Shown: positions 3,404 to 41,390 of the stretch, one piece after another | Layout: the number at the start of each line of letters is the position of its first letter | Position numbering within the stretch: position 1 is the stretch's first letter | DNA from: Protoeuglena noctilucae | Lineage: Eukaryota; Chlorophyta; Pedinophyceae; Marsupiomonadales; Marsupiomonadaceae | Assembly (NCBI GenBank): GCA_958009085.1 | Contig: OY253674.1 | Span: 1,207,760-1,271,759, forward strand | Length of the DNA stretch: 64,000 bases | Direction: 5' to 3' | Made by a program: the position numbers and the translations under genes | The notes under the pieces: generated by a model | The model's database searches: none | Told to the model about the DNA's origin: nothing | Seen by the model: the letters and a program-made list of their open reading frames with translations, nothing else

Positions 3404-6400
3404 ATGACGGACGTCGGCCTGGCAGGGCCGGCGGGGCCCGCTTCCACCGACCCGGGTGCGCGGCGTCCCTGCCGCCGCTGCTGTGCGAACAGGCTCGCCA
3501 GCGAGCCCCTCCGGCCCTTCACCCGGCCTCTCTTGCTTTGAATCGTTTCATATCTTGTATATCTTTCTACCCGCAGTGGAGCGGCTGCTGACCTCGGACC
3601 CCTCGCGGCTCACGGAGCCCATCAAGGTGCGATCCGTGCCCTGGCAGCCCCGCGCCGGCGCGTCCCAGCCCCGCCGCTCGCGCGACTCCTTGTAAGCAAT
3701 CTTTGTTTATTACACTGTCCATTCGCTGTCGTTGCAGACAATCAAGGACAAGTACGAGCTGCTGCCGGCCTTCCTGCGGGTGAAGGGGCTGGTGCGCCAA
3801 CACATCGACTCCTTTAACTACCTCATCACCCACGAGATCAAGAAGATCGTGGCAGCGAAGGGGAACAACGAAGTGCGGTGAGGGAATGCGGGGGACGGCC
3901 GCAGCGGTGCCTTGGGCTTCGTCGCCACGCTTCCCTACTGGTCCCGCGTGCTTACCAGGGGCAGTGCCTCCTGCTCATTGCCATGGATTCATTGCATTGC
4001 ATTCCGTTCCCGCTGCTTTCTCTCAACTCGGCACTCTTACCCTTCGCCCACTCCTCCCTCCACACCGCCCTCGCTCCACGCCCCACCCCTTGCCATCCCA
4101 CCCCTCCCTCACCCCTCCCCATCCCACCCCAACCCCCGCAGCTGCGACGCGGACCCCGATTTCTATCTCAAATACACCGGCATCTTCGTGGGCCAGCCAA
4201 CCGTGGAGGAGGACTACGTCACCAGCGGCGTCACGCCCCAGCAGTGCCGCCTGCGGGACATGACTTACTCCGCCCCCGTTTCTGTCAACATCGAGTATGT
4301 GCGCGGCAAGGAGGTGGTGTCCAAGACGGGCCGGCCGGGGGAGGGCGCGGTGGTGATTGGCCGCATCCCGCTGATGCTCCGCTGCCGCAACTGCGTGTTG
4401 CACGGGAAGGACGAGGCCGAGCTGGCCACCCTGGGGGAGTGCCCGCTGGACCCGGGGGGGTACTTCATCACACGGTGAGGTGATGGGTGGAGTAGCAATG
4501 GGTAGTTGGGTGCGACGGTAGCGGAGGATCAGTCAACACATGATTGTACGGTGGGGGTCGTGTGGGGGTGGTTAGTCATGTTGTGAGGGTGGTGATGGGT
4601 GGGTTGGTCATGGGGTGTAAAACAGTGGCTAGGGTGCATGGGTCGTGACACCCAACACACCCCATCCACACCCACACAGCCGCAACAACTCAGCAACCCC
4701 CCACCCTCATCCCAACACCCCCCCCCTTCCCATCCCCCCAGTGGCACGGAGAAGGTGGTGATGATTCAGGAGCAAGTGAGCAAGAACCGCATCGTGGTGG
4801 CACTCGACGCCTCCGACCAGCCCTGCGCGTCGGTCACCTCATCCACCCACGAGCGCAAGTCCAAGACAGCCGTGATCGTCAAGCACGGTCGCATGTACGT
4901 CAGGCACAACGCCTTCGGGGACGACGTCAACGCGGTTATTTGTCTGAAAGCGATGGGGATCGAATCAGATCAGGAGTGCCTGCTGATGGTGGGGGGGGAG
5001 GCGGCGGTGGCGGCTGTGGTGGCGCCCACGGTGCAGGAGTGCGCGGCGCTGGGGGTGCACACGCAGGTGAGAATGGGGTTGTGGGGAGTAATGTGTGGTG
5101 AATGGTGGCTGAGTGTGGTTGTGGGAGTGCGCGGCGCTGGGGGTGCACACGCAGGCAAGGGGTGGTGATTGGGTAGTAAGGGTATAGAGGGTGCCATCTA
5201 CATGTGCACGAGTATGCTGTCCCACATCTAACGATGACGCCCATAACACCCCCCCTCCCCGCAGATGCAAGCCCTGGAATACCTGGGGTCCAAGGTCAAG
5301 GTCACGCGGCAGGGGGGCGTGAGGGGGGGGAGGACCAAGGCTGACGACGCCAGGGACATCATGGGTGAGCGGATGTGGTAATGCACACCATATGCGTTGT
5401 TGATGTTAATGTTGATGTTGATGTTGCTGTACTCAAGAATGCTATATATACCAGTAATGATGTGAGCAGTGATGATACACCGAGCCACCACCCACCTCAC
5501 CCTCACCCACACCCCCACTCTTACCCACCCCCCCCAGCCAACGTGGTGCTCGCCCACGTCCCCGTGGTCAAATTCGACTTCTCCGCCAAGGCGGTGTTTC
5601 TGGCGGCCATGCTTAGGCGGGTGGGGGTGGCGATGCTGGATCCCCGGGAGGTCGATGACGTCGATTACTACGGCAACAAGCGCCTGGAGCTGGCCGGTCA
5701 GCTATTGGCGCTGCTTTTCGAGGATCTTTTCAAAAGGCTCAATGCGGAGCTGCGCAAGCAGGCGGAGGCCCACGCGGCCAAGGCCGGGAGGGGGGCGACG
5801 TTCGACGCGGGAAAGGCGATGCGGCCGGACATCATCACGTACGGGCTGGAGTCGGCGATCGCGTCGGGTGAGTGGTTGAAAGCAATTGCAGTGTAAATGA
5901 TGGTAACATGGCAGTCGTAGACATCATCACACACGTACGGGTTCCAGTCAGCCACCAGCTCACCCTTCACCCCCACACATCCCCCACCAGTCATTAACCT
6001 CCCAACCCCTCCCTTATGACCCCACCATTATAGCTCATCACCACCCCTTTATACCCATTACCCCCAGGCAACTGGACGATCCGCCGCTTCCGCATGGAGC
6101 GCAAGGGCATGACGCAGGTTCTATCCCGGCTGTCGTTCATATCCGCGTTTGGCATGATGACGCGGATCATGTCGCAATTTGAAAAAACGCGGAAGGTGTC
6201 GGGGCCGAGAGCCCTGCAGCCCAGCCAGTGGGGGATGCTCTGCCCGGCCGACACGCCCGAGGGGGAGGTGAGGGGGGGAGAGGGGACGGGAGTTGATATG
6301 AACTGTTATAGTATATTGGGAAGTGACATGGATATTGTAGTAATTAGACATGATAGCAGTAACTGGTTGCCACGCTGTGCCCAGCCGACATGCCCGAGGC

Positions 6401-9400
6401 TCGACTTTGGAATAATCTAGCATAATTATAACGTTATTAACACCAATAATCCCACTCGCTCTCCCACCCCCTTCAGTCCTGCGGCCTGGTGAAGAACCTC
6501 GCGCTGATGGCGCACATCACTACAGATCGTGATGCGTCTCACGTGAGGAGGGCGGCTTTGCTGCTGGGGACGCGGCCGGCCGAGGGGGTGCCGCCCAACG
6601 AGATGTTCGGGAGGCCGGACGTGGCGGTGGTGAGTGGTTTATGGGATATGATGGCATGTAATGGGGTGTTTGGGAGACCAGACATGATACCAACACCAAC
6701 ATCAATGCGAATACCAACACCCACACCAGCACCAACACCCATACCAACACACACTTACCAACCCCTCCCCCCCAGGTCTTTTTGAACGGCCAGGTGCTGG
6801 GCCTGCACGCCCAGCCATCCATGCTGGTCTCCCGCCTGCGCTCCCTGCGCCGTGCTGGCCGCATCGACACGTTTGCGTCCATCCACGCGAGCGGGGGAAG
6901 GGTGCACATCGCCACGGATGGGGGGCGCGTCTGCAGGCCGCTGATCATCTGCGATCATGGGGTGAGGGGGGGAGACAATGGGATGCGATAATGAGTGGGG
7001 CGTGTAGTGTTGGGTGGGAGCGTGGTGATGGGCGCCTGTCATTCGCGACAATGGTAAATATAGTATCATTTTACTATTACTATTACTATCACTATCACTA
7101 TCACTATCACTATCACTATCACTATCACTATCACTATCACTATCACTTTCACTGTTACTATCACTGTTACTATCCCCACCTCTCATCCCTTTCATCACCC
7201 CCCCAGATCCCCCGCGTGACCCAGCCCCACATCGACGCATTGAAGAGGGGCGACATGCACTTTAACGACTTTTTGTCCATGGGACTGATCGAGTACCTGG
7301 ACGTGAACGAGGAGAACAACGCGCTCGTGGCGCTGTACGAGTCGCAGTGCCACGCACAGGCGAGGATAGATGGTACTGCTAAGGGAGGGTGTGGTGGATA
7401 TGGGGTGTTAACAGTGCTATTAGTATAAGTATTATTCTAGTTATATTTCATAGGTAGTATACTCTTATGTATGATAGTTAATATATCTATTACTATATTT
7501 ACTCACTGTTTATAATACATAAATACAATCAACATCCTCACCCATCGCAGGTGACGCATCTGGAGATCGAGCCCTTCACGATCCTCGGGGTGGTGGCGGG
7601 GCTGATTCCCTTCCCCCACCACAACCAGTCCCCCCGCAACACCTACCAATGCGCCATGGGCAAGCAGGCCATGGGCAACATCGCATACAACCAGCTGAAC
7701 AGGCGAGGGGGTGGATGGGTATAGTAGTGGTGGCAGTTGTACTAATACTAAGCAACAGTTTGACTCTCACTATGCACCTACTCTATCAACCCCATCCCTG
7801 CCACCCAGGCTCGACTCCCTCATGTACCTCCTTTGCTACCCCATGCGCCCCCTGCTGACCACGAAGACGATCGAGTTGATCGGATTCGACAAACTGGGCG
7901 CGGGGCAGAACGCGTGCGTGGCCGTGATGTCCTACTCCGGCTACGACATCGAGGACGCCATCGTCATGAACAAGGCGTCGCTGGACAGGCGAGGGTGTGG
8001 TTGTTATTGAATATTATTTCATATACATATCATGTTTATCTTAATTATCAAAAAATTATTGATTCTATGTGTCACTGCAATTATGTTGTAATATTGTAAC
8101 AGCCAGTAACTGTAACTACGAGAATGAATTGTAAATATCATCACCCTGTTCCTTCTAACCCCCAGGGGCTTCGGCCGCTGCATCGTGCTGAAGAAGTACG
8201 GCACGACTTTGAAGCGTTACGTGAACCGTACCATGGATTCGATCTCTATCCCGAGGGGGCCGAATGGGGGGAAGGCCACGGGGAGGTACAAGTGCGTGGA
8301 CGTGGACGGCGTGGCCACGTGAGTGGGTTTGGGTTTGAATGCATGATTGGGGATGGGGTGGTGTTGCGTGTGATTCAAATGTGTGGATGGGGATGGGATG
8401 GGTGGTGATGTGTTTCAAGTGGATGGGATTGCTAAAAGGGGTTGGGATGTCAGTGAAAGTTCCGGTCCTTTCACCCCGTCAACTCTTACACTCACCCCCA
8501 CCCACCCACCCCCCAGCGTGGGTGAGAAGATCTTCCCCGGCGACGTCTACATCAACAAGCGCGTGCCCATCAACCCCAAGGAGACAGTCGAGGCGGGCAT
8601 CAACCCAGCGAATATGGCGAGTGGCAACTATGGCTAGTAAAATATAATGATGAGCGGGGATGCGATTGGTGGCCGATTGGTGGCCCTCTCGTTTACTGGT
8701 GCAAGTACATATGGACTACACCCCCACTGCCACCCCCACTGCCACTCTAACCCCCACACCCCCTCCCCCTCATCTCAGCCCGAGCACAAGTACCGCCCCA
8801 CCCCGCTTATCTTCAAGGGCGCGCCCGGTGAGAACTCGGTCGTGGATAAGGTGCTGCTGACATCGAATGAGACGGATTCGGCGGTCATCAAGGTGTTGCT
8901 CAGGCACACGCGGCGGCCAGAGCTGGGGGACAAGTTCTCGTCACGGCACGGGTGAGGGAGATGCTATCGCTATCGAGGGGGATGTTAGTGTGTGGGAGTA
9001 ATCATCAACATCGCTGTTTATACACACATCCACTCTCTTCCTCACTCCCTCCAGTCGAAAACGCGTGGTGGGCAACATCGCTGTTGATGTATAGAATACA
9101 AACACCCACTCTCTCTCTCACCCACTCGCAGCCAGAAGGGCGTGGTGGGCAACATCGTGAAGCAGGAGGACATGCCCTTCTCGGACCGCGGCATTTGCCC
9201 CGATCTGATCATGAACCCCCACGGGTTCCCCTCGCGCATGACGGTGGGGAAGATGATCGAGCTCATCGGGTCCAAGGCGAGTGGGGGATAGGGATGATGA
9301 GTGGTTGTTATTTATATGATCAATAATAACAGGTGATAGAGCTCATCGAATCCAAGGCGAGTGACGGGTGATGTTATGGTTGTTGTTGATAATGACAGAT

Positions 9401-10801
9401 GATAATGACAGATGGTCGAGCTCATCGGGTCCAAGGCGAGTAGCTAGTATATTATGGATGATGTTATGGTTATAAGCATAGTAGCAGATGATCGAGCTCA
9501 TCGGGTCCAAGGCGAGTAGCGATGGATGTTGTGGTGGTTACAAGCATAGCAGTTGTCGATTACAACAGATGATCCTCATCTCTCTCTCACAATCTCTCAC
9601 ACAATCTCACCCTACACAACCTCACCACCACCCCCACCCCCCTCACCCCCCCCAGGCGGCGGTGCACGAGGGCCGCCCCTTCTACGGCACTGCGTTTGGG
9701 GAGCCGTCGGGGTTAGCCGACGACGTGGAGACGATCGGAAGATGCCTGACTGCCCACGGGTTCAGCTACCACGGCAAGGACATGCTCACCTCGGGTGAGG
9801 GGTATTGGTGATGTGATGTGTATTGAGATTGATTATATTGATTATATTGATTATGACTTGTGATATATGTAGTATGGTTCAGCTGCCACGGGAAGGACAT
9901 GCTCACTCGGGTGAGGAGTGTTCTAATTGTATTCAATTGTTGTGTCAAAAAAATATATGGTTACCGTTTGATGGTCAACTACCCGATGTCCCCCAACCAA
10001 CCCAACCCCACCCAACCCCCCCTCCCTCCCCAGGCACCTCCGGCGAGCCCCTGACTGGCTACATCTTCATGGGATGCGTCTATTACCAGAAACTCAAGCA
10101 CATGGTGCTGGACAAGATGCACGCGCGAGCCACAGGCGAGGGTTGCATGCGACTGTAACTAAATTGAACTGATTGTGTAGTTTGTCAGTTACTCCGGCAA
10201 TATCCGTTGTCAACTCTGCCGATATCATTACTAGACATGGACAGGTGGCTTGCTCTGCCTCATTTAAGCGCACCCGCACCCGTACACGCACCCGCACCCA
10301 CACTCGCTCAACAACCCCTCCTCCCCCACCCACCCACCCCCAGGCCCCCGCATGCTGATGACGCGTCAGCCGACCGAGGGCCGCTCCCACGACGGCGGTC
10401 TGCGATTGGGGGAGATGGAGCGCGACTGCTTGGTGGCCTATGGGGCGTCGATGCTTCTCATGGAGAGGCTCATGGTCTCATCGGACGAGTTCACCATTCA
10501 GGCAAGGCAGTGTGATGGGCGATGATTACAATAAACACACATTACAACTGCCCAATGGAAGCATCTTGTGCACTGACACACACACACTCACCACCACTGC
10601 CCATCTCGCCCACCCCTCCAGGTCTGCACCCAGTGCAAGCTCCTCGCGTATTGGGACTTCGCCCTGCGTGCGGGCATGTGCAGCCGCTGCCGCTCCTCCA
10701 GCCACATCACCACCATGAAGGTGCCCTACGCTGCCAAGCTGCTATTCCAGGAATTGCAGAGCATGAACATCGTGCCGAGGCTCACGCTGGCGGATGCGTG
10801 A
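3404..10801 (+). CDS. POLR3B: DNA-directed RNA polymerase III second largest subunit RPC2 (POLR3B)
   Basis: This is the catalytic beta-type subunit of Pol III, which makes tRNA and 5S rRNA in the nucleus. Twenty-one exons join to 1167 aa (human about 1133): 3404-3455, 3577-3626, 3738-3877, 4142-4474, 4742-5066, 5265-5364, 5538-5867, 6068-6267, 6477-6629, 6776-6961, 7207-7359, 7551-7702, 7809-7988, 8166-8318, 8517-8616, 8779-8951, 9132-9276, 9656-9794, 10034-10135, 10344-10501, 10622-10801. Pol III-type hallmarks are [16 protein letters not shown] near the N-terminus, [20 protein letters not shown], the hybrid-binding [29 protein letters not shown], and a C-terminal zinc site CTQCKLL...CSRC. 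Seven of 20 introns use GC donors (at 7360, 7703, 7989, 8617, 9277, 10136, 10502). Several introns hold copies of the neighbouring exon edge. The segment before exon 10 (residues after HITTDRD) is more divergent than the rest. Confidence 0.96.
5036..5154 (+). repeat. Duplicated exon end and donor in RPC2 intron 5
   Basis: The last 31 bases of exon 5 (5036-5066) recur without a mismatch at 5124-5154 inside the following intron. The true exon end is followed by GTGAGA; the copy is followed by GCAAGG, which is itself a plausible GC donor. The spacing is 88 bp, so this looks like one tandem duplication of the junction. Confidence 0.9.
7072..7172. repeat. Hexanucleotide microsatellite in RPC2 intron 10
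   Basis: A run of about 100 bases of TATCAC/TATTAC units sits between exons 10 and 11 of the RPC2 gene. The central part is a perfect TATCAC array and the ends are degenerate (TTTCAC, TGTTAC). It is a simple-sequence expansion in an intron; no function is evident. Confidence 0.9.
9251..9517 (+). repeat. Fourfold tandem array of the exon 17 donor junction in RPC2
   Basis: A 32-base block (exon 17 tail plus its GC donor, core GGTCCAAGGCGAGT) occurs at 9251-9282, 9331-9362, 9410-9441 and 9486-9517. A fifth stub (AGATGATC) follows near 9567. Periods are 80, 79 and 76 bp. The first copy is the real exon end, because it continues the conserved protein and splices in frame to 9656. All copies keep the GCGAGT donor, so this intron carries four near-equivalent 5' splice sites. 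Confidence 0.92.
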
Positions 10802-11248
10802 GGGGGGGTGGGGGGGTAGGGGTGGGTGTGAGGGGGTGGGGTGAGGATGGGTGGAGTGAGAGGGGGTGGAGTGAGAGGGGGTGTGGGTGGAGAGAAGGTG
10901 GATTGGTCGAGAGGGGGTGGGTGGGTCGAGAGGGGTTGGATGAAGAGCAAAGTAGGGGCGTGCGTGGCATGGGGTAGTGGGACAGGGGAGCGAGGGTGCT
11001 GCTGCTAGTGCTTGGAGATGGCATGCGCTGTTTTGTCGCTGAGAGCTGGGATAGGGACGTGCCAGCTGCAGTTGAGCGAAAGTAAATGCGCGTGTCTCTG
11101 TCGTTTGCCGGACCTTGAACCGTCGAGCGGAGTTGGGCTGTCTGGCTTCAACACTGCCCTCCCGGGTCCAGCTGCGCCAGCTGCACAGTGCTCTGCTTAC
11201 ATCCACTCCATTCCCTGTCCGCCACATCTACATCCACCCACCCCCCCC
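10802..11248. other. Convergent 3' region, G-rich repeats
   Basis: These bases lie between the stop codon of RPC2 and that of the small gene on the other strand. The left half (10802-10940) is a degenerate G-rich repeat built from GAGAGGGGGTGG-like units. No conserved reading frame is visible; it must contain both 3' UTRs and polyadenylation sites. Confidence 0.6.
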
Positions 11249-12518: not shown

Positions 12519-14576
12519 ATGTGGACCAACGAATTTCCGTGGTACTACCTCCAAGTGAATCCCGTGACCGGAGTGTGGCTGTTCGCGCGGTACACCCTGC
12601 TGGTGCAGAGGTGAGGCGCGCGCGCGCTCGATGCGTCGCCCGGCGTGCCTTCGCGGATACAGTTGCGTTCTATACGTTTACCGCTACTCGCCGCATCGAG
12701 TCCGCGCAGGCAGCGATGGACGCTCGACAAGATGTGGGAGATGAGCCAGAACATCGACCCTTTGTACGTGGCGCCCGCGGCGCCCCCGAAGGAGCGGCGC
12801 CCTATGCGCAATCCCAGTTTCCAGAACTACATTTCCCGCTTCACGGGAGGGGCCCCGCAGCACGCCAAGGCCCCCAGCATCGGGTCGGTGAGGGGCGAGG
12901 CTAACGCACCCGCATTTGGTGGTCACTCACAAAACGTGGCCACCCCTCCTACCCCGCTCGCTCGCGTGGCTTCACTGCGAGTTCATATGGTTCATGTGTT
13001 GCCATGTTGTGCTCTTGATGCAGTCCTTTCGCTTGCTCGCTCTCGCTTGCCAATCCAAACACTACCCAACCCCACTCCGTTGCGCAGCCTGGGGAGGGTT
13101 TGGGCAGGGAGGACACGGCCAGGTCGGAGAAGAGCGCAAAGCCATCTATCGGTGAGTGGTTTGATTGCTTGTTATGGATGGGGCATTGCTTTTACATGTA
13201 CAGACTGTGACATGGGTCACTGCATCGCGTGACGTGCAGAGCACCAATGTGATGACTCTGACTTGTGTTGCTTCCCCCGCAGCTGAGATCCACCGCAACG
13301 TGCTGTCGCGCCAGGCCATCTTCCTGGTGAGCGCTGGGGCGGGCGTGATGCATGGCGATCACAACTCGCCGTCCCCAACCACCTCTCCATCTCAGCAAGC
13401 CAAGCACCCCTCCCACAACTGAAGCTCCACCTCACCTTATCCCCACCCCATCCCACCCCACCCCCCCTCCCTCCCCAGGCCGAGCAGGCCAAGCACCTGG
13501 GCCGCAACTTCCGCATCATCCAGTCCGCGATCGGCTTCTTCCTGACTGGCATGGCCATCCAGTACCTTTACTTCGCCATCGTGGGCGCGACCGAGGACGA
13601 GGCCGTGGTGCGGTGGATGAACATCGTGGCGCAGGTGCTGGGGATGCTCGCCATGGCGCTCGCCGCCTTCGAGATCCTCACCTCGCACCGGTGAGGGGGT
13701 GGGTAATTCTGGGGTTGATTGTTTTGGGAGCGGTACGGGGGTGACTGTTGTGTGATGAGCGCATTGACATCTCACTCACCCCACCCACCCCACCCCAGTC
13801 CCCCAGTCATCCATTTGTGTATTAAACCATTCAACATCTCACCCCCTACCCATATTCGCAGTCCCCTGGTAAGCGAGATGACTTTCCAGGACCGATGGGA
13901 GCGCAACATGGTGAAGCTGGGGAGGCTGCCGGCGTCGTGGGGGGACATGCTGAGGAAGAAAGAAGCGATGGGTGATGCCAACTCTGTTAATGCCACTGCC
14001 GCTGCTGCGGGTGTGGGAGTGGGGGCGGGAAGTCCCACGATGTTCGCTCGGCACCACGACCCCGGTGCTCATACGCATACGCTGCATCATGGTCACGCGG
14101 GCGCGTCTGTGCCCGTGGCCGTCCCCGACTCCAATGGCATCGCCAGCAGCAGCGGGGGTGAGGGCGCGGGTGCAAGCGACAGCAGCAGCGGGGGTGGGAG
14201 GGCATGCTTTGGGTACGCAGCCACCCTCCCAACTCCATCTCTGCTGCACCACCCATGCTTCACTCAATCCCCTTTCCCATCTACTCTGGCTCACTCCCCA
14301 ACCCCAGCCCCACCCTGACACCCCTCACCCCCACCCTCACCACCCACCACCCCCACCCCCGCAGAGCCCGTCCTCCTCGGCGTCCGCTCCCACAGCGCCG
14401 CGGACCTCGCCCCCTCCCGGCCGGCAGTCGCCTCCGCCGTGGAGCTGGGCGCCACTTCGGTTCAAGCAGTGTCGGCGTCAGATCTGCCAATGGCGCCATT
14501 GGCGGGCGGCCCTGGGATCTCCGCGGAGGAACCTGCCGTGCCCTCTGGCGTCTCGGTCCTTTTCGGATTGGGATAG
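12519..14576 (+). CDS. Predicted two-TM membrane protein of unknown function
   Basis: Seven exons (12519-12610, 12710-12887, 13088-13151, 13283-13326, 13479-13690, 13862-14157, 14365-14576) join in frame to 365 aa. The N-terminus is MWTNEFPWYYLQVNPVTGVW. Two hydrophobic segments lie in exon 5, around FRIIQSAIGFFLTGMAIQYL and WMNIVAQVLGMLAMALAAFE. The C-terminal half is low-complexity (Ala, Gly, Ser, His) and ends soon after EPVLLGVRSHSAADL. Exon 6 is ended at the GTGAGG donor because that keeps the best frame into exon 7. Introns here show duplicated junctions (13393 against 13480, 13799 against 13862, 14146 against 14180). I do not recognise the family. Confidence 0.65.
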
Positions 14577-16765: not shown

Positions 16766-19700
16766 AGGGACGGGGGAAAGGGGAAGGGCGCGAAGAAGGA
16801 GGAGGACAATTTGAACGAGGAGGAGAGGCTCAGGCGCGTGCAGCGACGGCGCGGCGGTCGGGAGAGGCGGCGTCGCGACGAGCGGGGCGCAAACATCGCC
16901 CCCTCCGCCTCCCCCTCGCTTTGCAGGCGCAATGTCGAGGAGCGTCGCGTGCAGCTTCGCGCGCGGTTGCTTCGTGAGCAGGAGTACGCGCGCGAGCACG
17001 CGGCGAAGATCAACACGGCCTGGCGCCAGCTGCTGCGGAAGGCCAAGGTGGAGGAGCTGCGGGCGGAGATCCAGGTGCTGAGTCAGGGCCACGAGAGGGA
17101 GATCGACCGTCGCGATGCGGTGATCCAGATGCTCGACCGGGACCTGGAGGACGCGGAGGACCAGTATTTAACGGCGCTGCGGGGGCACATGCAGGCGAGG
17201 GGCGTGAGGGGTGGGGTGGAGTGAGGGGGGGCACATGCAGGCGAACGACGGTGGCGGTGTGGTGGTGTGAATGAGAGTGGCACATGGCGCGTGACACACG
17301 CACAGCGCCCCGCATTGGTGGCACTCCGCCCACCTGTCACCCACCCCGCGCTGCTCCGCCTGTCCTCGCAGGCCCTCGACGCTTTGCTGGACCTGCAGGA
17401 GCTCCGCATCCAGAAACTGGACAAGGAATTCCGAGAGAACCTGTCCATGGTGAGACTGGGTATTATACTGGCATGGATGTACAGTGGACGTGAAGGCACA
17501 GGCGGCGTGCGTGTCGCTGTGTGTGTGTGCTGCCACCGCCATCCTAGACCGGCACAAGCGGAGTGAGCGTCGTCACTCCCAACCCGCACCACCCTGTTCC
17601 CTCTCGTCATATCATCGTCTTCACTCATCCCATCTCACCCTCTCCCCCCTCATCACTCCCCCAGACGGAGCAGGAGTTCGAGTCCGAGCGCCAGGAGATC
17701 GTGGCCACGCACGTGCGGCAGAAGAAGGACCTGCAGGACATCATTGTGGCCATGGAGGCGGAGTTCGCCAGGATCGCGGCGGAGGCGGAACAGGAGTTCG
17801 AGGCGGAGAGGACGGGTGAGATGGGATGAGGGGGTGGGGGGGGGTGGGGGGAGGGGGATTCAGGGAGAGGGGTGAGGGGCACGGGAGTTTGAGGCGGTGA
17901 GGACGAGGACGGACGGGAGGGTGCACTGAGATGGGAAGGGGTGTTGAAGTCCCAGTTGTAACACCACCCCTTCTCTCACCACCCTCAACCTTCTTCATCT
18001 CCCCAGACATCAAGAACCGTGCTCAGGAGGAGTACCACGTGACGCGCATCCAGCAGAACAACGCCATCGAGGACTGCGAGGCGCACTACGACAAAATGTA
18101 CAAGACGTACATGCAGGCGAGATGAGGGAGTGGGATGGGTGCTAGACGTACATGCAGGCAGGAGGGGAGGGAGTGGGATGGGGTGGGATGCACATGCAGC
18201 GGGGTGACTGATGATATGGGGGTTGGATGTTCACATACACGCATTCCCACTGTCCGCCCCCACCAGGCTTCACTCTCACACCACCCTCAACCCCACCCCC
18301 ACCATGCCCCCCTCTCAAACCCCCCTCACCCCCTCTCACTGTCCCCCCCACTCAAACCCCCCTTTCCCAACCGCAGTCGAGCGAGAAGGACGCGGCGGAC
18401 TTCCAGCGACTAGCACAAACGGACAAGCAGGACGCCAAGGAGATTGAGCGGGAGATGAACCGACTGGCGCGCCTGCACCACGCCGTGCAGCACTGGCGGC
18501 TCAAGATCGCCAACAACGAGGAGGAGTGGAGCGACCGGAACGCGGCGCTGAGGGACGAGAAGGACGTCATGACGAGGCACTATGCCAAACTGAAGGGGCA
18601 GATGGACCGCTTTAGAAGACAGCAGCAGTCGCGGCTCAAGGAGCTCAGCCGGCAGAGCGGGGCGGCGATGGAGGCGCTGCGGACGAGGATCGCCGTGGCG
18701 GAGAGGATTTTGAAGCTGGCCGAGTTCTGCAGGAGGCTCGAGACGGAGGCGAGGGGGTGGGGGGGTGGGGGTTGCATGGGGGGGTGTCGGGGGTGGTGTT
18801 AGGGGTGGCATGGGTAGTGGGGGGTGTAATGGGTGTTGGGTGTTGCAATTCTTACACCCGCATGCTGCATGGGGTGTTTGTGAGTGGGTTGATGGCATGG
18901 ACAGTATTACTGGCGTCGTCGTGCGACCGGTTCACGTCACGGCGCACTCGCTCCGCAATGATCAATGACTACTGCAGCATGTCGTGACAGCCTCTCGTCT
19001 CGCTTTCCCCGCAGCAAGAGAAGGTGCTTCCCTTCTGGAGCCCCGCGGAGGCCCTGGCGGACGAGCTGCTGGAGGGAGACCTGAGGGAGGCACAGGCAGA
19101 GGCGTCGCAGGTGAGGGGAAGGTGGGGTAGATGAGCGAATAAGAGGAGTGCGGAAAGATGGAAGCAGAGGCACCGGCGGAGGCGAGGATGGTTAAATGAC
19201 GGCAGGGTACTGTTCAGGTGGTGGTAGGGCACAGCGATCGTCGCCCACTGTCACACCCACACCCCCAGCCGCCGCACCCACCTCACGCTCACCCCCCACC
19301 AACCCCAACCCCACTACCAACCACCCCCTCCCCCCAGGCCCTGCACCAGGCCGACGACGAGGCCTCCTCGCTGAACCTCCCCCACCGCGCGCAACCCGAG
19401 GAGCCCACCAGCAGCGCGGGGGTAGGCCCCGACGGCCGCCCGGTGCCTGAGTGGGACTACCTCAACAACTTTTTCAAGAAATACAACAAGGTGCTGCTCG
19501 ACGTGGCGTCCATACGCAGGGAGAAGCAGCGGCTGCAGGCGGAGGTGAGGGGGGGTGTGGAGGTGGATGTGATGGTGACGGGACATGCGAAGCGATGCCA
19601 AGTTACCTCAGGCTGACTGAGCCCAATCCAGGTCTGATAGACTCTCTCGCTCGTCGTCCACCTCTCCCCGCATTCGCCTGCCCTGCTGCCTCCCTGCATC

Positions 19701-19998: not shown

Positions 19999-20228
19999 CG
20001 CGAACCGCAGCGCCAGTTGCGCCAGTTGCTATGTCTGACCCGCGAAGGGGCGCGCGGCGGCTACATCCGCTGAAAGTATGCGTGTCTGGTGTTTATCTGC
20101 GAGCGCTCTTGTTGAAGGGACCCGGAGGGGCAGCTGCGAGGAAGCCTGGGAGTGTTCCGCTAGCCATGCGCATGCTGCAACGTAAATGCGCGGCCTGCGC
20201 CGACGATGACGTCCGTGTCTAGAGCGTG

Positions 20229-27008: not shown

Positions 27009-27410
27009 CCGTGAGACGCCAATTGATTGATGGACTCAAACACCTCTCGTTGCTGTCACTGGTGTGTCAAGCAGAGCAGTGTGGCTGGCGATGCTCGCGT
27101 AACAGTGAGGGACCGTCGGGACAGTGCAGGTCACGCGTTGGGGGGCGTCACGAGCACTCGGGGTGCTTTCAGAAAGGCGAGCTTCTCTCTGCGAAGGGCG
27201 TCGATGACGAGGCGTGGGGAACAGTGACAGGGATCGAGGGAGGAAGGAAGGCACTGGTGGCGATGGCAGTGTGGGTAGCCACGACTGCGACAGTCATGGA
27301 CAGCAACAGCCGGTGGCAGAGACAGCTCAATTATAGAATAGTCACAACGTCGCTGTGCACAACTCCACATCCCTGCCCATCCCATCCCATCCCATAGCAC
27401 CAACGCGCCC

Positions 27411-27828
27411 TCACCGCAGCACGGCCCGGGCCACCAGTTGCGGTCCCCCCGGGCCCTCCACGCGCTCCAGCACCAGCAGCGGCCGGGACAGCGGCGCCGT
27501 GCCACCCTTCAGCTCGTGCCGCCCGATCACCAGCGTCGCGGGGGCGACGCCCTTGGCTCCCCGGGGACCCAGGCGACCCGCCCCGACCTCCAGGGACTCG
27601 GCCGCGGCCCTCGCGCGCTGCTCCGGGCCCAGCTCCAGCTCCCCTTGAAGTTCCAGCAGGCACTGCGGGGGCGGAAAAGAGGAGCGCGATGCCGGCGGGG
27701 CGTGGAGGGCAGGCCACGCGCCGCGCAGCAGAGCGGGCAGCGTCCTGCGCCGCCCGCGGCGAGGCGAGGAGCGCGCTGTTCACCCACTCAGGCAAGGGAC
27801 CGGGGTTCTTGACGACCGGCAAGATCAT
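27411..27828 (-). CDS. CTF8: Chromosome transmission fidelity protein 8 (CTF8/CHTF8)
   Basis: CTF8 is a small subunit of the Ctf18-RFC clamp loader, acting in replication-coupled sister chromatid cohesion and PCNA loading. Two exons (27828-27784, 27662-27411) join in frame to 98 aa (human CHTF8 about 121). The join gives PLPEWCLLELQGELELG, matching the family's EW-LLELQGEL core. The second half has TLVIGRHELKGGTAPLSRPL followed by LVLERV, matching the IG-H-L-G...L-KPL-V pattern. The start ATG is next to the conserved region. An upstream in-frame ATG also exists but adds non-conserved residues. Confidence 0.88.
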
Positions 27829-31769: not shown

Positions 31770-34456
31770 TCACCCCCCCCTCGCCCTCTCCGCGTCCCTC
31801 GCCGCGAATGCCGCCACCAGCACCGGCACTGCGGTGGGTAGCTGCAGTGGAGGGGGACACCGCGTGAGTGACCCCGCCTCAAAGTGCCACGAGCCGCCCT
31901 GGTGGGAGAGGGTGCGGGGGGAGAAAAGCCAGTACCTGGGGGAACAGGAGAGGGAAGGGGGGTGCTAAGAGGGTTGGGGAGGGAGGAGTGGGGGTGCGGG
32001 TGGGATGTGGTGTTTTCACACCGCCAATCAAGAGTCCATCTCCTGCCACACCTGCTACCCTGACACGTACCCCATAACTGCTCGCGGTATTTCATATACC
32101 GGATATCTCACCTGGCGTTCACTGCCCTGGCGTGCTGCACGCGGCAGCAGAGCACCGGGGCACGCCTTCCCTCGGCGTGTGCCACCCAGGTGTGGCCGCA
32201 GACGAGGGCACGGCCGCGCACCCGGAGCGTCGAGAAGAGGACAGAGTGGGTGCGACGGAGATGACGGGCACTGGCACTTGCACTGCCACTCTCACCCGCA
32301 CCCGCACCTGCACCCTCACTGCCACCACCCTCGCCACCACCACCGCCACTCTCACCAACCCCCCCCTTTGCCAGGCACACCTCGGACCCGGTCACCCTGG
32401 CGATGAGGGGCCCTGGGTTGCTGGGAGTGCCCCAGAACACATCGCACTGCACGGCACGCGTGGGGTATGCAACAGTCACGCATCTATCAACAGATGAGCG
32501 CAACTGTGACCCCATGCAGCGGCATACGGTCACCCCACTCCCTCACTTCCCCACTCCCTCACTCACCACATGCAGTGGCATGCTGTCAAACCCACTCCAC
32601 TCATCCACTCCCACTCACCACATGTAGTGGCATGTTGTCCACTCCCACGAAAGGCGCCGCCCAGGCATCCAACGCAGACAGCACCCGCCCCAGCCACCCA
32701 TGCCGCTGTCGGGACTCATCACCACCCTCCCCCTTCACCCGACCACCACCACCCTCTGCCCCTCCCCGCACATCCTCTCCCCTCCCCAACCCCTCACTCC
32801 CCTCCGCCACTCCCCGCACACCCTCTCCCCTCCCCACCCCCTCACCCCCCTCTGCACCCCCCCGCACATCCCCACTCTCCCTCTCCACACCCCCGCTCGG
32901 CAGCTCTCTCGCTCCCCACGTCAACTCCCCCCCCGCATGCCACGCCGCCCCCTCCGCCTCCCCCAGCCTCCTCCGCACCGCATGCGCCACCACCCGCCCC
33001 GCCAGCTCCAACTCCAAACATTCCCTCGTATCCCTCATGTTGCTGGCATTATCCCTTTTACTTCTCACATCTCTGGCGTCCCCCACGCACCCCGGCAGCG
33101 AGGCCTCCCGCACCGCCCCCAGCGTCGTGCGCCCTGACACCAGCTGCCAGAGATCGCCAGCAGTGGGGGAGGTGCGCGACTCCGCCTCGAAACCATCTGA
33201 GAGAGATGGGGGAGAGATGGGATGGGTGATATGCACAGACTGGGTGCGCAGGGGCGAAGCGTGATGTGGGAAGGGGTGGGGAGGGGCGCACGATGGCACA
33301 TGGGCAGAGGGGCGAGTGAGGACAGCACTGCTCGGCTAATCAAGCGCAGTAATGGGGTCCAATGGTAGGAAGCGTCGCGTCTCACCTGGCAGCTCCCCCG
33401 CTTTCAGGTGCGATATGTCTGGCCCCAGGTATGCGTGGCGCATGGCACCCCACAGCGCAGCCACCAGGGCATCGGGGAGAAGGGCGCCGATGACACTGCG
33501 ACGGGGGGTGGGTGGATGACGACTGGCGACAATGATGGACAAAAATAGACAGATGACCCCACGCAGTCAAAACTGGTCAACCAGCAGTGCCCTCACAGCC
33601 CCCCCCGCACTCACCCCACGTCCCTCGCATCTTTCACAAACCCCACGTCATTCCACCGCACTGCCCGGGCTGGGCTCCTGGGCCCCTCCACGCCCGCCCC
33701 CTTCTCCGCTCGCCAACCCCGCGCCCAGTCCAGCAACGTCGCCTCCTGGGCCCCCTGCGACGTTGAAACCAAGCATGGTATTCATACATCACAGCAAATA
33801 GCCCTGCCTGTCCGTATGCTACCGCATTTCTACTCCAAAGCGCCCCTCACCTCCGCACGCTCCCGCCGTCGCGCGGCCCATCGGTCCAGGCCATCCAATC
33901 CCCATCGCCATGGATGCTCCTCGAATCCCTCCGTGTGCTCCGTGAATTGGACGGGGCCCCGGGGCCGCCGATACACCCCGGCCGGGCCAAATGCGCGGCC
34001 GCGGTGGGGAGGGGCGCGATGAGCCGACCCGGGCCCGGCCGACGCCTCGCCCGGCGCACGGTTGTCGCCATGACGTCGTGCGTATCTCCCTCCGATGCCT
34101 CCCGGACCGCCCGCGCCGTCCCCTCTGCGCAGGTGCGCGTCGTAAGCGCGGCGCGACACAGGGCTCCCCAGCACCCGCCGGGCGTCGACGAGGCGCTGGA
34201 AGACCTCCCCGCGACTTTCCTCCCACTCCCAGATCTCCGACGCCGATCCCGTCGCGTGGCCGTGGTCCGAGCGGCGCTGCAGGTCGGGATGCAGCGCGCG
34301 GGCCCTACGACGGAACGCGCGGCTGATCTCCTCGGCGCTCGCGTCCGACGAGACGCCTAGAAGCTCGTAATGGGTCAGATCGCGCACGGACTGAAGCGAG
34401 CGCGGGCGCGCGGACGCTAGGGCGCGCGTAGCAGCCCTCGCCATGCCCGGCTGCAT
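31770..34456 (-). CDS. J-domain (DnaJ/HSP40) protein with long unrecognised C-terminus
   Basis: J proteins stimulate the ATPase of HSP70. Exon 1 (34456 to about 33850) encodes a basic N-terminus (MQPGMARAATRALASARPRS) that could be an organelle signal, then a J domain HYELLGVSSDASAEEISRAF with the HPD motif in ARALHPDLQRR. Later exons near 33757-33615, 33500-33400, 33199 to about 32619, 32504-32355, 32240-32110 and 31940-31770 continue in frame with EATLLDWARGWRAEKG, LVAALWGAMRHAYLGPDISH, ESRTSPTAGDLWQLVSGRTT, TVAYPTRAVQCDVFWG and SVLFSTLRVRGRALVCGHTW. The C-terminal part looks like a conserved globular domain but I cannot name it. The intron after the 32619 exon contains two extra copies of the donor junction. 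The stop is TGA at 31772-31770. Confidence 0.72.
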
Positions 34457-34736
34457 GGCTCTGCGACCGCCATGCCAGTCGTCTTCGCGGCGGGGCCTGT
34501 GAAAGCGACGTTGCGGAGTCCACGCAGCGCGGAAGGGCGCGGGGGCGGCGGTGCACCTCTGGCAGCGACATCACGTTTCAATGTTTGGGTCGTGTGCTAC
34601 AGAGCCTAAGCTCGCAGGCAGCGCACTGAGAAACTCCATCCTCGCTGCAGCCACAGTGAGATTGTCCGTTGTACGATTTCAAGGGCTTCAACTTCGTCGT
34701 GGCGTACGGCTCCCCTCACATGTCCCGGTATGTGAA

Positions 34737-34915
34737 GGGGCAGTCTCCGCCCACGCCCAACGCGGGATTGCCTCACCTCACGCGCCCCGTAGGGTCTCGG
34801 TTGTAGATCTTGTCCTGCTTTACTTTCAACAGCAGAGCAGGACGAGATCTACTGCAGAGACCCGACGGGGCGCGTGAGAACGCGAGGCGTGTGTTGCATG
34901 GGCGGAGACTCCCCA
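34737..34915. repeat. Large imperfect palindrome 1
   Basis: The left arm (about 34737-34820) and right arm (about 34829-34915) are inverted copies around a loop of about 8 bases. Matching blocks include GTCTCCGCCCA, TCACGCGCCCCGT, GGGTCTC, GTAGATCT and GTCCTGCT. Arms of about 80 bases with scattered mismatches could form a long hairpin in RNA or a cruciform in DNA. It lies between the 5' end of the J-protein gene and the 3' end of the DHQ synthase II gene. Confidence 0.85.
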
Positions 34916-34935
34916 GCGGGGCCGGGCGCGGGTGC

Positions 34936-35034
34936 GGGCTGTGGACGGAGTGGTTTTCATGACGAGCCCTGCAACTTGTCGATGCATCGACGCCTTGCAG
35001 ATCTCTGGCTGAAAACCACTCCGTCCACGGCCCC
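34936..35034. repeat. Large imperfect palindrome 2
   Basis: A second inverted repeat starts about 20 bases after the first. The left arm has GTGGACGGAGTGGTTTTCA; the right arm has its inverse TGAAAACCACTCCGTCCAC at 35010-35028. The centre is the perfect palindrome TCGATGCATCGA with no loop. Arms are about 48 bases. It is unrelated in sequence to palindrome 1. Confidence 0.88.
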
Positions 35035-35516
35035 GCAGAAACCGGGGAGGAGAGACTGCTGTGTGTGTCGACTTGCTATGCACTGCTCCGCAACGGGTCG
35101 GCCCGGCGAACCGCGGCACAGGGGTCGCGCACTCTGCGCGCACGGGAACCACGACGATTTATTCAGGCGACAGGCTCGGCGTCACTCACTCACGGCTGCA
35201 CGGGCGGGCCGGATCCAAAGGGGTCACGCCCACCTCAGGATCGGCCTCCCCCCGCCAACACCTGCCCGCGCCAGGGCCCAATCGCGCCTCTATGCGCTCC
35301 GAGAGAAAGAACAGAGGACGCGGGCACGGAGCCGCAGGGCCGGCGCGCCGCGGATGGCCGAGCAGGTTGAAAATTGAGGACACGAGGATTTTTGTGTCTA
35401 CTCTCATGTGGCGATCGTTCAGCTTATTCCTCGCCGAAAGTGGCTCAGAAACATGGAAAATGTCGGCTCGGGTGCTAGGAAATGAATCAAAACGTTCGGC
35501 GCTTGCGCGTCACGCG

Positions 35517-37399
35517 TCAGACCTCCCACATTCCTGCGTCCACCCGCAGTCCCGTGTGCCGCGCCCCCTCCTGCCGCAGCACGTACACCTCGCGCCCTGG
35601 CCGCAGATCCGTCACCGACACGGCCTCGTCGCCCTCCCCTCCCTCGGCCGGGCCCACCAGCCTGTTGCAAGACAGGGATGGGCGCGTGAGTGGGACAGAT
35701 GGGTGGCAGTGACTTGCAGATGGTGGAGTGGCAATGCGACATTCAAGCTCATCGCACCCCTCACCGCACCGTCTCTGCCTTCTGCACCACCACCGACACC
35801 GCGTCCCCCCCCGCCCCCTCCGCCTCCACCAGCACCATCGGCCGCCGCTCGATCTTCACCCGCCCCACCGTCGCCTCTCTCACGGGCGCGCCCCCCTCCC
35901 CCCGCGGCCCCACCACCGCCACCCGCGCCCCCGCCCTCAGCTCCGACAGGTACGCCGTGCGATCCCCCGCCGCCAGGCAGTAGGCGTGCACCGCCCCCGC
36001 GTTGACCCGGAAGGGCCGCGCGTTGACGTAGCCCTCCGCATCCAAGCACTCGGAATGCACCAGGAACAGCGCCCTCGCGAAGTTGCCCACGAGCATCCCC
36101 TCCCCCGGCGACAGACGCTCCGTCAGATCCACGCACGCGCGGTCGCCCACCCCCGCGTCCACCACCCGCGCCACCCGCACCGCCTCTAACATAGCCATTC
36201 CCGGCCTCTCGGCGTTGTTAGCGCCACCACCACGCGTGTCGAGGTCGGCAGAGTCTAAGACCCCCACCCCTGTCGCCTGCCGGGGCGCTTGTGCTTGAGC
36301 TTGCGGTGCCGCCCCCCGCACGTGCATCCCCAGTGCGGCCATACGCTCGGCCAGCCGCGTCACTTGGCCCGCCTCCTGGGTCCGCAGCACCACGCCGCCC
36401 ACGCCCACCTCCAGCGCCGTCAACATCACCTCGGCCTCCTGAAGAGAGGGCAACGGGGACATCCACATGTCACATCAGCATCATTTCGGCCTCTTGAGGA
36501 AATGGCGATTGGGACATTCACATGTCACACCGCCACCCCTCCCCACATGCTGGCAGCAAGTCCCATACCACGTCTTGTGGCAAGCATTGAGTTTGGCCAC
36601 GCAGCGTGTCTCTCGATGGGCATGCGCCCCCAGTTAGCAATTTCTGTAACTGGAGACACGTGCGCATGCGAGAGGCATGCGACGCGGCTGAGCCCAGGAC
36701 ACGCCACAGAGCGGCGTATGGCATTCGATACCCGCATGCAGCTGCGATGGACCCCATTGCCACGCCCATGCATGCGTTGCCCATCCAATGCCACCCTCCC
36801 CTCACCCCCGCGTCCTCGACCGCAAACAGCAGCGCCGCCCTGGACCCCCTCGTCTGCGCAATGAGGTTCTCTGCCGGGATGATCTGCCAGTCCGTCGCCT
36901 CCACCACCAGATGGTAGCCGGGGGGGTGCTGGGGGGGGTAGGGAGACGGTGGCGATGAGACTTGTTATCGCTAGCTCCGATGCTAAGAGAGATAGATGCG
37001 ATGATGCTCGCCATCGCCAGCTGCAATGCCACTTTACTCCATCCACACTCACTCGCCCCCTCCCCTCACCTTCTTCCCCACCAGTCGGTCAGTCACCCCC
37101 CGCAGCTCCCCCGCTCCGCCCACCGACACCCACTCCCCCGTACACTCCCACTCCCCCTCGCTCTCCTCGATCCCATCACTGAGAAACGTCACGCAGACGC
37201 CCCCCTCGCATCCCGGCAGCTCCGCGTCACCCGGCACGCGCAGAATGTCAGCGAGGGACGCGCCGGGCCCCACCGTACGCGACGCCAGCACACGCGACGG
37301 GCCCCGGGACGCACTACCGCTGTCGACAACGAAGGCGCGGACGCCGTTGGCGATCGCGGCGCGGACCACGGCCTCGCTCGTCGTCATGACCCAGACATC
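35517..37399 (-). CDS. 3-dehydroquinate synthase II (archaeal-type AroB'), 5' exon unresolved
   Basis: Family members catalyse the DHQ-forming step in the archaeal shikimate route; homologues occur in plants and algae, where the role is unclear. Exons: 37399 to about 37076, about 36930-36816, about 36438-35769, about 35662-35517 (stop TGA 35519-35517). Landmarks are VWVMTTSEAVVRAAIANGVR at the start, TDWQIIPAENLIAQ, EAEVMLTALEVGVGGVVL, VVDAGVGDRACVDLTERL, GMLVGNFARALFLVHSECL, RPFRVNAGAVHAY, and the C-terminal VLRQEGARHTGLRVDAGMW. This covers nearly the full family length. The first supported exon starts at an acceptor, so a 5' exon exists upstream, perhaps the frame starting MLLCACFAGQSPVRMRAMRA near 37725, which looks like a plastid or mitochondrial signal. 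The intron near 36440-36540 has a duplicated segment. Confidence 0.87.
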
Positions 37400-38042: not shown

Positions 38043-41000
38043 ATGCTTGTGAAGATTATGGATGGCCTCTTCATCGGCGACAAGGACGCCGACGCCGCCG
38101 CGATGGATCGACGCGTGACGCACATCCTCCGGCGAGCGCGCGGCCGCATAACAGCGGCCTTCGATCTGCAATTCGCGAGTTTGCTATCTAAAGTAATCGC
38201 CTCGCGTCACGCGCCATCCCCTCCCGCTCCCTCGCCGCAGCGTGGGTCCCTTTGATGACGTGCCCCCTCCTTGCCCCCCCGGCGCCGCTGCGCCTTCGGT
38301 GCTCGTCGTCCCGGTCGATGACACCGACGACGCGGATCTCCTGGACCGTCTGCCGCCCGCGGTGGACTTCCTCGACGCCGCCATCGATGCTTTCCGGGAC
38401 CGCAGGAGCGGTGGGGCCATGGTGCAGTGCGTGGCGGGGGTGTCGCGGTGAGGGATGGTGGATGGTGCAGTGTGTGGGTCGCAATGCATGACAGTGGTGT
38501 GCTTGTCAGCCATGCCTTTCTCAACCCCCTCACTCCCTCTCTCTCCCCCCCAGTAGCGTGTCGGTGGTGTGTGCGTGGGCCATGCGCCGCCACGGCCTCT
38601 CCCGCGACGACGCCCTCTCCCGCATCCGCACGCGGCACCCCCCCGCATGCCCCAACGACGGTTTCATGCACCAGCTGGCCATGTGGGGGTCCATGGGGTG
38701 TCGTGTGGATGCCAAGCACCCGGAATACCGAAGGTGCCAGTGGTGTCAGGGGACACAATCTCTGCTTGTGTTTGTGTGTGGGAACGAGTCACGGTGTCAA
38801 ATTCACACCATGTCAGCACTTCACTCTGCCCCTCCCATATGCTACGCCTGCCTTGCTGCCACTCGCAACCACACCCGCGCCTCATCACATGCTCCCTCAC
38901 CCATCTCCACTCCCCACACACCCCATCATCCCTCTCCTCCCCCCCAGGTTTTGCCTGGAGCAGCTGGGCGTGGATCACCGCGACGGTGCAGGCGTGGGCG
39001 AGGAGAGGCTGGCAGCGGACCCGGGGGCAGAGGGGGCGTCGTTGCATGGGAGTAACAATGACGATGTCAGTGGCAGTGGCAATGGGAGTAACAATAACAA
39101 TGGGGGTAACAGTGGCAACACCAACCCCGGTGACCTGTACCGTTGCCGGTCGTGTCGACGGATGCTGTTTGGCGAGGGGAACGTCGTGCCGCCGGTGAGA
39201 GAGGGGGGGGGGGGGAGGTTACTTGATTAGCATGTAATTGTGCTTATCTCTGTCTACCTGTGCTCTTTCTCATATCTGTGTACCTGTGCACGTGTTCATA
39301 TCCGTGTGCCCATGCATGCATATCCATCCCTCGCATATCTTTTGACAGTTATTCCCAATTCATCCGCAGTCGTCTGCCACCGGCTGGTCCCGATTTAAGC
39401 ACGGGAGGGGACCCGCACGCCCACCACCGACCACAGCGAGTGCGGACGGGGGTGCGGGTGCCCATTCCCCATCGTCGCTGTTCCTGGAGCCGATGCGGTG
39501 GATGGAGGGGGTGCTGGGTGAGAGAGAGGGTTAGATGCGTGGCAAAAGGCGAAAGTAAGATGGATGCAATGCACTTCAGTAGTGGGTGACAGAGTATCGC
39601 CCACACCCACGCATCTGTCGCACCCTCCCTCCCCCCCTCACAACATCGAACCCACCCACTTCCCCCACACCACCCACCCCCTCTCAGTCCCCCCTAACCC
39701 CAGGCTCCCCCCGTGGCAAGCTCTACTGCCCCTCGTGTCACGCGCGCCTGGGATCCTTTGACTGGGCGGGGCTGCAGGACGAGAGGGGGCAGTGGGTGAC
39801 GCCCGCGTTTCAAGTGCACAGGAGCAAAGTGGATGGGGGGGACGGGGTGGGGGTGGGAGGGGTGGGAGTGGGGGTGGGCAGTGGGGTGGGGGGCGGTGTG
39901 GGAGGGAGTAAGGGGTTGGGCGGTGTAAGCGGTGTAACCAGCGGGGGTATGGGAGGGGTGGTGGCAGATGGGGTACAGGGCGGCACTGCACATGGTGTTT
40001 CCAGTGTGGGTCGTTTCGATTTCGTGATCTTCGACTGCGACGGTGTGCTGGTCGACTCGGGTGAGGCAGCCGTGCCTATGTAGGCATGCATGCATGACAT
40101 GGGGCTTGTGTGTGTAACAGTAGTGGTGGTGGTGGTGGTGATACACCACCAAGTCTCTCCATCTGCCTAACTGTGTCCATCACCCCACCCAACGCCACCC
40201 CACCACATCACCATCCATTCCCTATTCTGTCTTCCCCTCAGAGCCCATCTCCTGCCAGTCCCTCGTGCTAGCCATCCACGCGGCCACGGGTGTCACCGTG
40301 CCTGGGTCATACCCGGATGACTTCGCGGCAGTGCAGGGGATGGACGTCAAAGGGTGCGTGGGGCACTACAAAGCACAGATGGGGGTGGAGTGGGACGTGG
40401 AGGCGGTGGCGGGTGAGGGGTGTGGAGCGTGTATGTGGGTAGGGCATGGGTGCTGTGTCGTGGCTGGGCGGAGGTGGCAAGTATGGTGTGCCGCTTCACC
40501 TCGCTCTTGGGTTCTACTAAACTCAATCCCGCTGCCAATCCCTCATCCACCTCACCCATCTTCAATCCTCACTGATCCCCGCCTCCCCCCCAGCCGAGGT
40601 CTCCCGTCTCAAAGACGGCATCTACGCCCGCCTCGCCGACCAGCGCGGCATCGCGGCCATCCCAGGAGCAGCATCTCTGATTGAAGCATTGCGTGACAGG
40701 GGGTTGCCGTACGCACTGGGGTCGTCCGGGTCCCCTGCCAAGATCAAACGCAACCTGGCCACGAGCGGGCTCATATCTTTGTTTCACCCAAAACAGGCGA
40801 GGGGGGGGGGGTTGTGTGTGGGTGTGGGTGTGGGTGTGTGGGAGCAGCGCAGGTGTGTGGGTGTGTAAGGGAAGGACCCAAGCCTTTGCCTCACTCACTC
40901 TTACTCCCCCTCACTCCCTCCCCTTTCTCCAGGTCGTGAGTGCCTCGATGGTCCCCCGCGGCAAGCCCCATCCCGACATCTACCAAGAGGCCATGCGGCG

Positions 41001-41390
41001 CATGGGGTGCCAGGACCCACGAAGGGCGATGGTGATTGAGGACGCCGTGCATGGGCTGGCGGCTGCGAGGGCGGCGGGGGCATTCGCGGTCGGGATTACC
41101 ACGTCAGGTGAGGCTCTATGGCATTTGAGTGGTCATGGGGTGTCCATGGTTGTGGGGTGGTTGCGTGGGTGCTGGTAAGGCGATGACCGTGTGGGGTGGT
41201 GCTTAGAGTACTGTCGGGTCATGTATCGGTGTTGCTATGCGAGTGACATAAAAAGTGTTGCATTCTCGTCCCTCCACCCATCCACGCAGCCCCTCGCTCC
41301 GTGCTCGCCCCCCATGCCGATGCGGTCATTGACAGCCTGGCAGAGGTGATACAGCTGATGGGGTGGGGAGAGGGAGAGGGGGATGCGTGA
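38043..41390 (+). CDS. Fusion of a DUSP12/YVH1-like phosphatase and a HAD-family phosphatase
   Basis: Ten exons join in frame to 625 aa: 38043-38131, 38241-38447, 38554-38733, 38948-39194, 39370-39517, 39704-40060, 40242-40412, 40594-40796, 40933-41107, 41290-41390. Residues 1 to about 160 are a dual-specificity phosphatase domain (MDGLFIGDKDADAA, VVPVDDTDDADLL, MVQCVAGVSRSVSVVCAWAM). The zinc-binding DUSP12 C-terminus follows (YRCRSCRRMLF, SSLFLEPMRWMEGVL, LYCPSCHARLGSFDWAG, WVTPAFQVHRSKV). A Gly/Val-rich linker of about 60 aa leads, with no stop, into a HAD domain: motif I FDFVIFDCDGVLVDSEP, motif II LGSSGS, motif III Lys in RGKPHPDIY, motif IV MVIEDAVHG. GC donors follow 38131 and 40796. 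The usual His before the catalytic Cys is Gln. HAD substrate is unknown. If an unseen intron or stop splits the linker there would be two genes. Confidence 0.8.

Follow-up and report, generated by a model that had tools for sequence, protein, structure and literature searches.

Gene content of the window

The window, by which we mean the whole 64-kb stretch of DNA analysed here, forms the terminal part of a contig of 1.27 Mb (OY253674.1, hereafter C7) in an assembly of 26.3 Mb and 26 contigs. RNA polymerase III subunit RPC2 is the product of an intron-rich gene at 3371-11075; its best match is at 76%, and the best named matches, from green algae (Myrmecia, Coccomyxa and Nannochloris), are at 67-68%. 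A gene at 16585-19998 matches the NYD-SP28 sperm-tail family, and the minus-strand gene model at 23453-27828 encloses a run of 200 N (23509-23708). Two back-to-back long hairpins occupy 34720-35050, with arms of 48 nt (85% complementary) and 49 nt (80%) and an RNA fold of -223.6 kcal/mol (z -12.6); their only matches in the genome are their own opposite arms, and they are a candidate small-RNA precursor. The gene at 38058-41545 encodes a predicted protein with dual-specificity phosphatase and HAD hydrolase domains, and a diverged tandem array with a 30-base unit lies behind it in intergenic DNA (41652-41794). Further along are an RNase MRP RNA gene (51620-51848, Rfam) and a telomeric GGTTAG array of about 38 copies (63773-64000), a repeat also carried by the end of contig C1.

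Sample, gene models and scoring

Beyond the window, 280 kb were sampled, comprising 200 kb of C1 (C1:200001-400000), the 40 kb of C7 adjoining the window upstream, where positions carry negative coordinates, and the last 40 kb of C1. All introns were predicted from DNA alone by a semi-Markov gene finder trained on the sampled data, and merging of mini-exons and zero-length exons gave a final set of 777 introns in 344 kb. Counts from an early sample of 597 introns rest on gene sets that were later refined, and are superseded by the final regional counts. The first 42 kb of the window and the 40 kb upstream of it are together referred to as the hot region (C7 0-82k). For the junction-copy test, each exon edge (up to 30 nt) was aligned to its own intron, with a score of at least 14 as the main cut.

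The sampled regions have a GC content of 62-70%, with a mean for introns of 0.607 in the hot region vs 0.653 elsewhere in the sample. Before merging, 194 of 793 introns, about a quarter, had GC donors. Introns are G-rich in their first half and C-rich in their second, so that their ends might pair.

Copies of exon edges within introns

The sequence-only reading of this DNA had held that many introns contain a copy of the flanking exon edge, and this was borne out at 14 of the 16 sites that it cited, which score at least 14, a value reached by between 0 and 4 of the 748-763 other-gene introns compared. The site at 13799/13862 scores 7, as do or exceed 297 of 763 other-gene introns, and thus fails, and at 14146/14180 there is no predicted junction within 81 nt, although a short duplication is present (20/22 aligned bases). 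Across the whole window, junction copies occur in 21 of 140 introns, in eight genes; the introns at 689-607, 17816, 24029, 24954, 26464, 39066 and 39896 are additions to the earlier list. The sites are as follows (position, strand, feature).

589-720, minus: intron 689-607, exon-tail copy 27/30, unit 44 nt
5037-5264, plus: RPC2 intron 5067-5264, copy from 5125 matching the exon tail at 30/30, copied donor GCAAGG; remainder of unit without significant similarity
6239-6476, plus: RPC2 intron 6268-6476, exon-tail copy from 6375 (22/25), with loss of the copied donor
8952-9160, plus: RPC2 intron 8952-9131, exon-head copy from 9063 (18/18), intronic part similar (p 0.002)
9251-9655, plus: RPC2 intron 9277-9655, exon tail and GCGAGT in four copies, with unit lengths of 80, 79 and 76 nt and similarity across the entire unit (157/210)
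9758-10033, plus: RPC2 intron 9795-10033, exon-tail copy from 9882 (27/30), plausible copied donor; remainder of unit dissimilar (p 0.89)
13327-13508, plus: intron 13327-13478, weak exon-head copy from 13394 (20/26)
17181-17371, plus: intron 17195-17371, donor-spanning duplication, unit 46 nt
17787-18006, plus: intron 17816-18006, exon-tail copy 24/28, unit 91 nt
18098-18376, plus: intron 18117-18376, donor-spanning tandem duplication, unit 41 nt
19081-19337, plus: intron 19111-19337, exon-tail copy from 19167 (16/18)
22021-22299, plus: intron 22021-22269, exon-head copy from 22135 (26/28), unit 135 nt
22406-22660, plus: intron 22406-22630, exon-head copy from 22552 (19/21), unit 79 nt, intronic part similar (p 0.008)
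23768-26464, minus: gene 23453-27828, exon-tail copies in introns 24029-23768, 24954-24790 and 25694-25452 (the last a whole 54-nt tandem duplication) and exon-head copy in 26464-26348; model uncertain at 24954 (copied donor outscores the called one) and 26464 (period 39)
32447-32648, minus: intron 32618-32447, donor-spanning duplication, unit 52 nt, third copy decayed
36420-36529, minus: intron 36805-36439, acceptor-spanning 55-nt duplication (44/55); exon-head score 13, under the cut and outside the 21 counted
38419-40241, plus: introns 38448-38553, 39066-39369 and 39896-40241, exon-tail copies; the last two with uncertain models (weak called donors, repetitive coding stretches)

The peptide that is present four times at RPC2 9277-9655 occurs once in the four RPC2 relatives examined.

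Copies were found in an exon's own intron far more often than in controls. In the first sample, exon tails scored at least 14 in 16 of 559 cases and exon heads in 6 of 559, against 0.87 and 0.43 expected from non-cognate introns. At the same cut, exon windows 30-120 nt off the junction gave 1-3 matches (0.6-1.9 expected) and reverse-complemented exon edges gave none (0.9 and 0.5 expected), and at a cut of at least 12, one of six off-junction windows, 30 nt into the downstream exon, was raised (17 vs 7.1 expected). Dinucleotide-shuffled introns lead to the same outcome, and the copies are thus specific for their own intron by both controls: in the hot region, 18 of 170 tails and 8 of 166 heads were matched, vs 1.3 and 0.2 from shuffled introns. 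The rest of the sample yielded 2 of 557 tails and 1 of 566 heads, vs 0.65 each. The sequence-only reading thereby passed the shuffling check that it had itself named as a possible refutation. Divergence between exon and copy in the region ranges from none to about 23%.

Regional distribution

Junction copies are concentrated in the first 42 kb of the window (21 of 100 introns, eight genes, or 17 of 100 when the four uncertain or coding-like introns at 24954, 26464, 39066 and 39896 are set aside), weaker in the 40 kb upstream (5 of 81) and rare elsewhere, which indicates a regional process. None was found in the 39 introns of the last 22 kb of the window or in the 103 introns of the telomeric end of C1 (last 40 kb), and the 200 kb of C1 had three in 446, giving 3 of 588 for all sampled introns outside the hot region. 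Repeats accompany two of these three: the gene of 17408 contains a 288-nt repeat, and 199319 is next to coding-like arrays of 21 nt. The background may therefore be lower still. Testing of the hot region came after it had been noticed, which inflates the p-value; the unbiased check is the upstream 40 kb, which had not been picked by the earlier reader and still exceeds the rest (Fisher p 0.001).

Self-comparison of introns and their flanks, which picks up local duplications of any kind, gave 37 of 184 introns in the hot region vs 15 of 593 elsewhere. Intron length was considered as a full explanation and rejected, the hot region being higher in each of four length bins. Subtelomeric position was likewise rejected as the cause, given the empty telomeric end of C1 and the empty last 22 kb of the window. 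At the density of the hot region, the sample shows neither a genome-wide nor a subtelomeric phenomenon, and the earlier statement that the process is ongoing in the genome was too broad. Within C1:200001-400000, local intron duplications look loosely clustered near 10-33 kb and 196-199 kb of the joined stretch, perhaps as weaker hot spots.

Anatomy of the duplications and probable intron lengthening

Duplication units span about 26-137 nt, with a mean of 57 nt in the hot region, where introns bearing a duplication average 226 nt vs 157 nt for those without. Whole-unit tandem duplications are seen at 25694 (unit 54 nt), at the acceptor of 36805-36439 (unit 55 nt), at 9277 (four copies) and, with a unit of 64 nt, 37.5 kb upstream of the window. 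The intronic part of the unit could be compared in 18 of the 29 junction copies, the other 11 being too short. It was similar (p<0.05) in 8 of the 18, including the C1 intron 17408 in the gene with the 288-nt repeat, where 0.9 would be expected by chance; in the other 10 it was not significantly similar, while the exon part was 77-100% identical.

We consider it fairly probable (about 0.68) that short local tandem duplications have occurred repeatedly in and across introns of the hot C7 stretch, lengthened these introns and then decayed. A duplication spanning a junction would leave the intron with a second exon edge and splice site. With the outer junction still functional, splicing would take out the extra copy, so that the intron becomes longer and the duplication is kept because splicing removes it; the spliced-out copy would then be free to decay. 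The reading builds directly on copies that are specific for their own intron, on their regional clustering, on an excess restricted to introns (see below) and on the similarity of whole units in part of the cases. Use of the outer splice site, neutrality of the duplications and a repair mechanism of fill-in or slippage at staggered breaks are what we infer beyond this, as would be any reason for the hot region itself.

The 10 dissimilar cases are not what a simple tandem duplication of one age would give. An alike exon part next to a dissimilar spacer implies either that filler separates the copies or that similarity in the intron was lost quickly. In the former case, fill-in of a staggered break at the junction would duplicate the exon edge with its splice site, and unrelated DNA would be inserted to separate the two. 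We regard this sub-mechanism for the dissimilar-spacer cases as possible but tentative. The extreme example is intron 5067-5264, where the exon is matched at 30/30 and the rest at p 0.12, and genome searches with 5060-5160 and 9800-9900 (simple repeats skipped) returned only the sequences themselves and, for 5060-5160, the exon source. In cells of mouse and human, fill-in of 3'-overhang ends is reported to yield small tandem duplications (PMC8355091). However, the remainder of the unit is similar in 8 of the 18 cases, and introns have simple sequence in which insertions and deletions may accumulate, so that similarity may have been lost where it is now missing.

Introns compared with exons and intergenic DNA

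Intron interiors in the hot region are themselves frequently duplicated. Interior points with a downstream copy amount to 6.9% vs 1.45% elsewhere, with about 0.3% in a random-place control; the points were sampled 7 nt apart and are not independent, and exonic points were taken only from exons of at least 180 nt. As intron interiors are duplicated about equally often as junctions, a junction-specific process is not needed. The expectation that copies should be rarer away from junctions held for intergenic DNA and did not hold for intron interiors. Intergenic points in the hot region gave 19 of 1575, the same as their random control (19 of 1575), and elsewhere 48 vs 29 of 4936 in the control. 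Exonic points gave 5.7% in the hot region vs 4.5% elsewhere (random control 2.2% and 0.95%). Tandem arrays show a similar pattern, with 24 intron and junction arrays in 31.4 kb of hot-region intron vs 8 in 79.9 kb elsewhere, compared with 7 in 36.4 kb vs 27 in 133.0 kb for exons and 4 in 14.2 kb vs 7 in 47.8 kb for intergenic DNA. The regional excess is restricted to introns in this sample.

The periods of the arrays differ between compartments. Over the whole sample, the period is divisible by 3 in 29 of 34 exon arrays vs 20 of 43 non-exon arrays. Given this last share (p 0.075), some of the 43 may be coding repeats that were put in the wrong compartment. Among the junction copies, the unit is divisible by 3 in 7 of 29, a difference from the exon arrays that is as expected if splicing removes the junction copies.

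Two results speak against the preferred reading of local tandem duplication: a hot stretch should also raise duplication in intergenic and exonic DNA, yet there is little or no rise, and 24 of 32 events in the hot region span a junction where uniform placement predicts 15.6 (sd 2.5). The corresponding count for the whole sample is 30 of 46 vs 22.2 expected. Both could be accounted for by a duplication process coupled to splicing or transcription, with some preference for splice junctions, which we nevertheless think rather improbable. Exon tails are duplicated more often than interior points (10.6%, 18/170, vs 6.9%), as such a process would have it, but heads are duplicated less often (4.8%, 8/166). 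Moreover, copies touching an exon may stay recognisable for longer because one side is constrained, an effect that could give rise to the modest junction excess. Intergenic DNA, for its part, amounts to only about 14 kb in the hot region, and selection may act on it.

The wider proposition, that a domain of at least 82 kb exists in which introns, and not intergenic DNA or exons, have been repeatedly lengthened with a mild preference for junctions, is at present doubtful. Were such an intron-only domain real, it would point to co-transcriptional or splicing-coupled duplication as a driver of intron growth, for example through R-loop breaks over the G-rich 5' halves of introns. If the preferred reading of local duplication holds, the copies of a single region, from identical to about 23% diverged, form a natural record of stepwise intron growth and of the reasons why junction-spanning duplications are tolerated. 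The many tandem alternative splice sites would then be material for studying how the spliceosome continues to pick the outer one, and the region would offer a test of whether intron length can be driven by an intron-acting process rather than a general DNA process. A narrow literature search on junction duplication and intron length found no paper, a result that we confine to that search and do not extend to the printed record.

Improbable alternatives: intron birth, a function of the copies and Introners

Rogers reportedly proposed that introns are gained by tandem duplication of an exon segment containing AG|GT, and the ATP2A1/ATP2A2 genes (Hellsten et al. in 2011) and a potato RdRp gene are said to be cases linked to such gain. 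The sequence-only reading had suggested that introns arise or grow in this manner. Growth is supported by the greater length of duplication-bearing introns and by the similar units described above, while birth is not supported. New introns of this type were sought as an exon-tail copy abutting the 3' end of the intron or an exon-head copy abutting its 5' start, an arrangement that is detected for well-preserved copies only. No tail copy was found in 691 introns (score at least 11; 0.45 expected), and one head copy was found in 691 (score at least 12; 0.15 expected), in the minus-strand window intron 1312-1126. An ungapped version of the test gave 3 of 691 tails (1.2 expected) and 1 of 691 heads (0.2 expected). 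Donor-side copies sit within introns and are followed by further intron sequence. The gene finder did take 5067-5154 as an intron, with the copied exon end as acceptor and a zero-length exon behind it, and such a unit can therefore look spliceable. That introns here were newly made by the Rogers route nevertheless seems very unlikely.

Retention of the copies for a function, as alternative splice sites, in recursive splicing or as decoys, is at least as improbable. When the highest-scoring site no more than 3 nt from a copied junction was compared with the sample, it exceeded the 5th percentile for 11 of 20 donors and 4 of 9 acceptors; these copies keep a plausible splice signal, and alternative splicing there is possible. 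However, about half of the copied sites have been lost, and the affected genes are unrelated ones from one region. Mismatches between exon and copy number 17/232, 23/231 and 29/238 at the three codon positions (41 non-synonymous, 28 synonymous). Coding constraint on the copies was considered, and no clear sign of it was seen (position 3 vs 1+2, p 0.14), which also weighs against a function; by our estimate, the spread over codon positions is close to what decaying copies and silent exon changes would together produce.

Mobile introns of the Introner type, bearing long target duplications, would fit the exon edges flanking dissimilar DNA on both sides in part of the cases, but are extremely unlikely, since an all-against-all comparison of the 777 introns (E <= 1e-6, low-complexity filter on) found a single similar pair, the neighbours 16493 and 17408 in the C1 gene with the 288-nt repeat.

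Comparison with known systems

Local tandem duplication followed by decay, the reading preferred here, shares features with several known sources of duplicated or intronic sequence. Introners are described as transposon-derived introns, occurring chiefly in lineages that evolve rapidly, green algae among them (PMC9860276), and are likewise a source of intron sequence; unlike them, the present sample holds no family of similar introns. Fill-in at DNA ends by CST / Pol alpha-primase is reported to produce small tandem duplications of adjoining sequence (PMC8355091), much as observed here. That work concerns Cas9-nickase breaks in mouse and human cells, and in the alga it is the sequence outcome alone that is compared. 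Gain of the Rogers/Hellsten type has in common with the present case a tandem duplication that involves an exon edge together with splice signals. The difference lies in the product: whereas no new intron is seen forming in our sample, existing introns lengthen repeatedly within one region.
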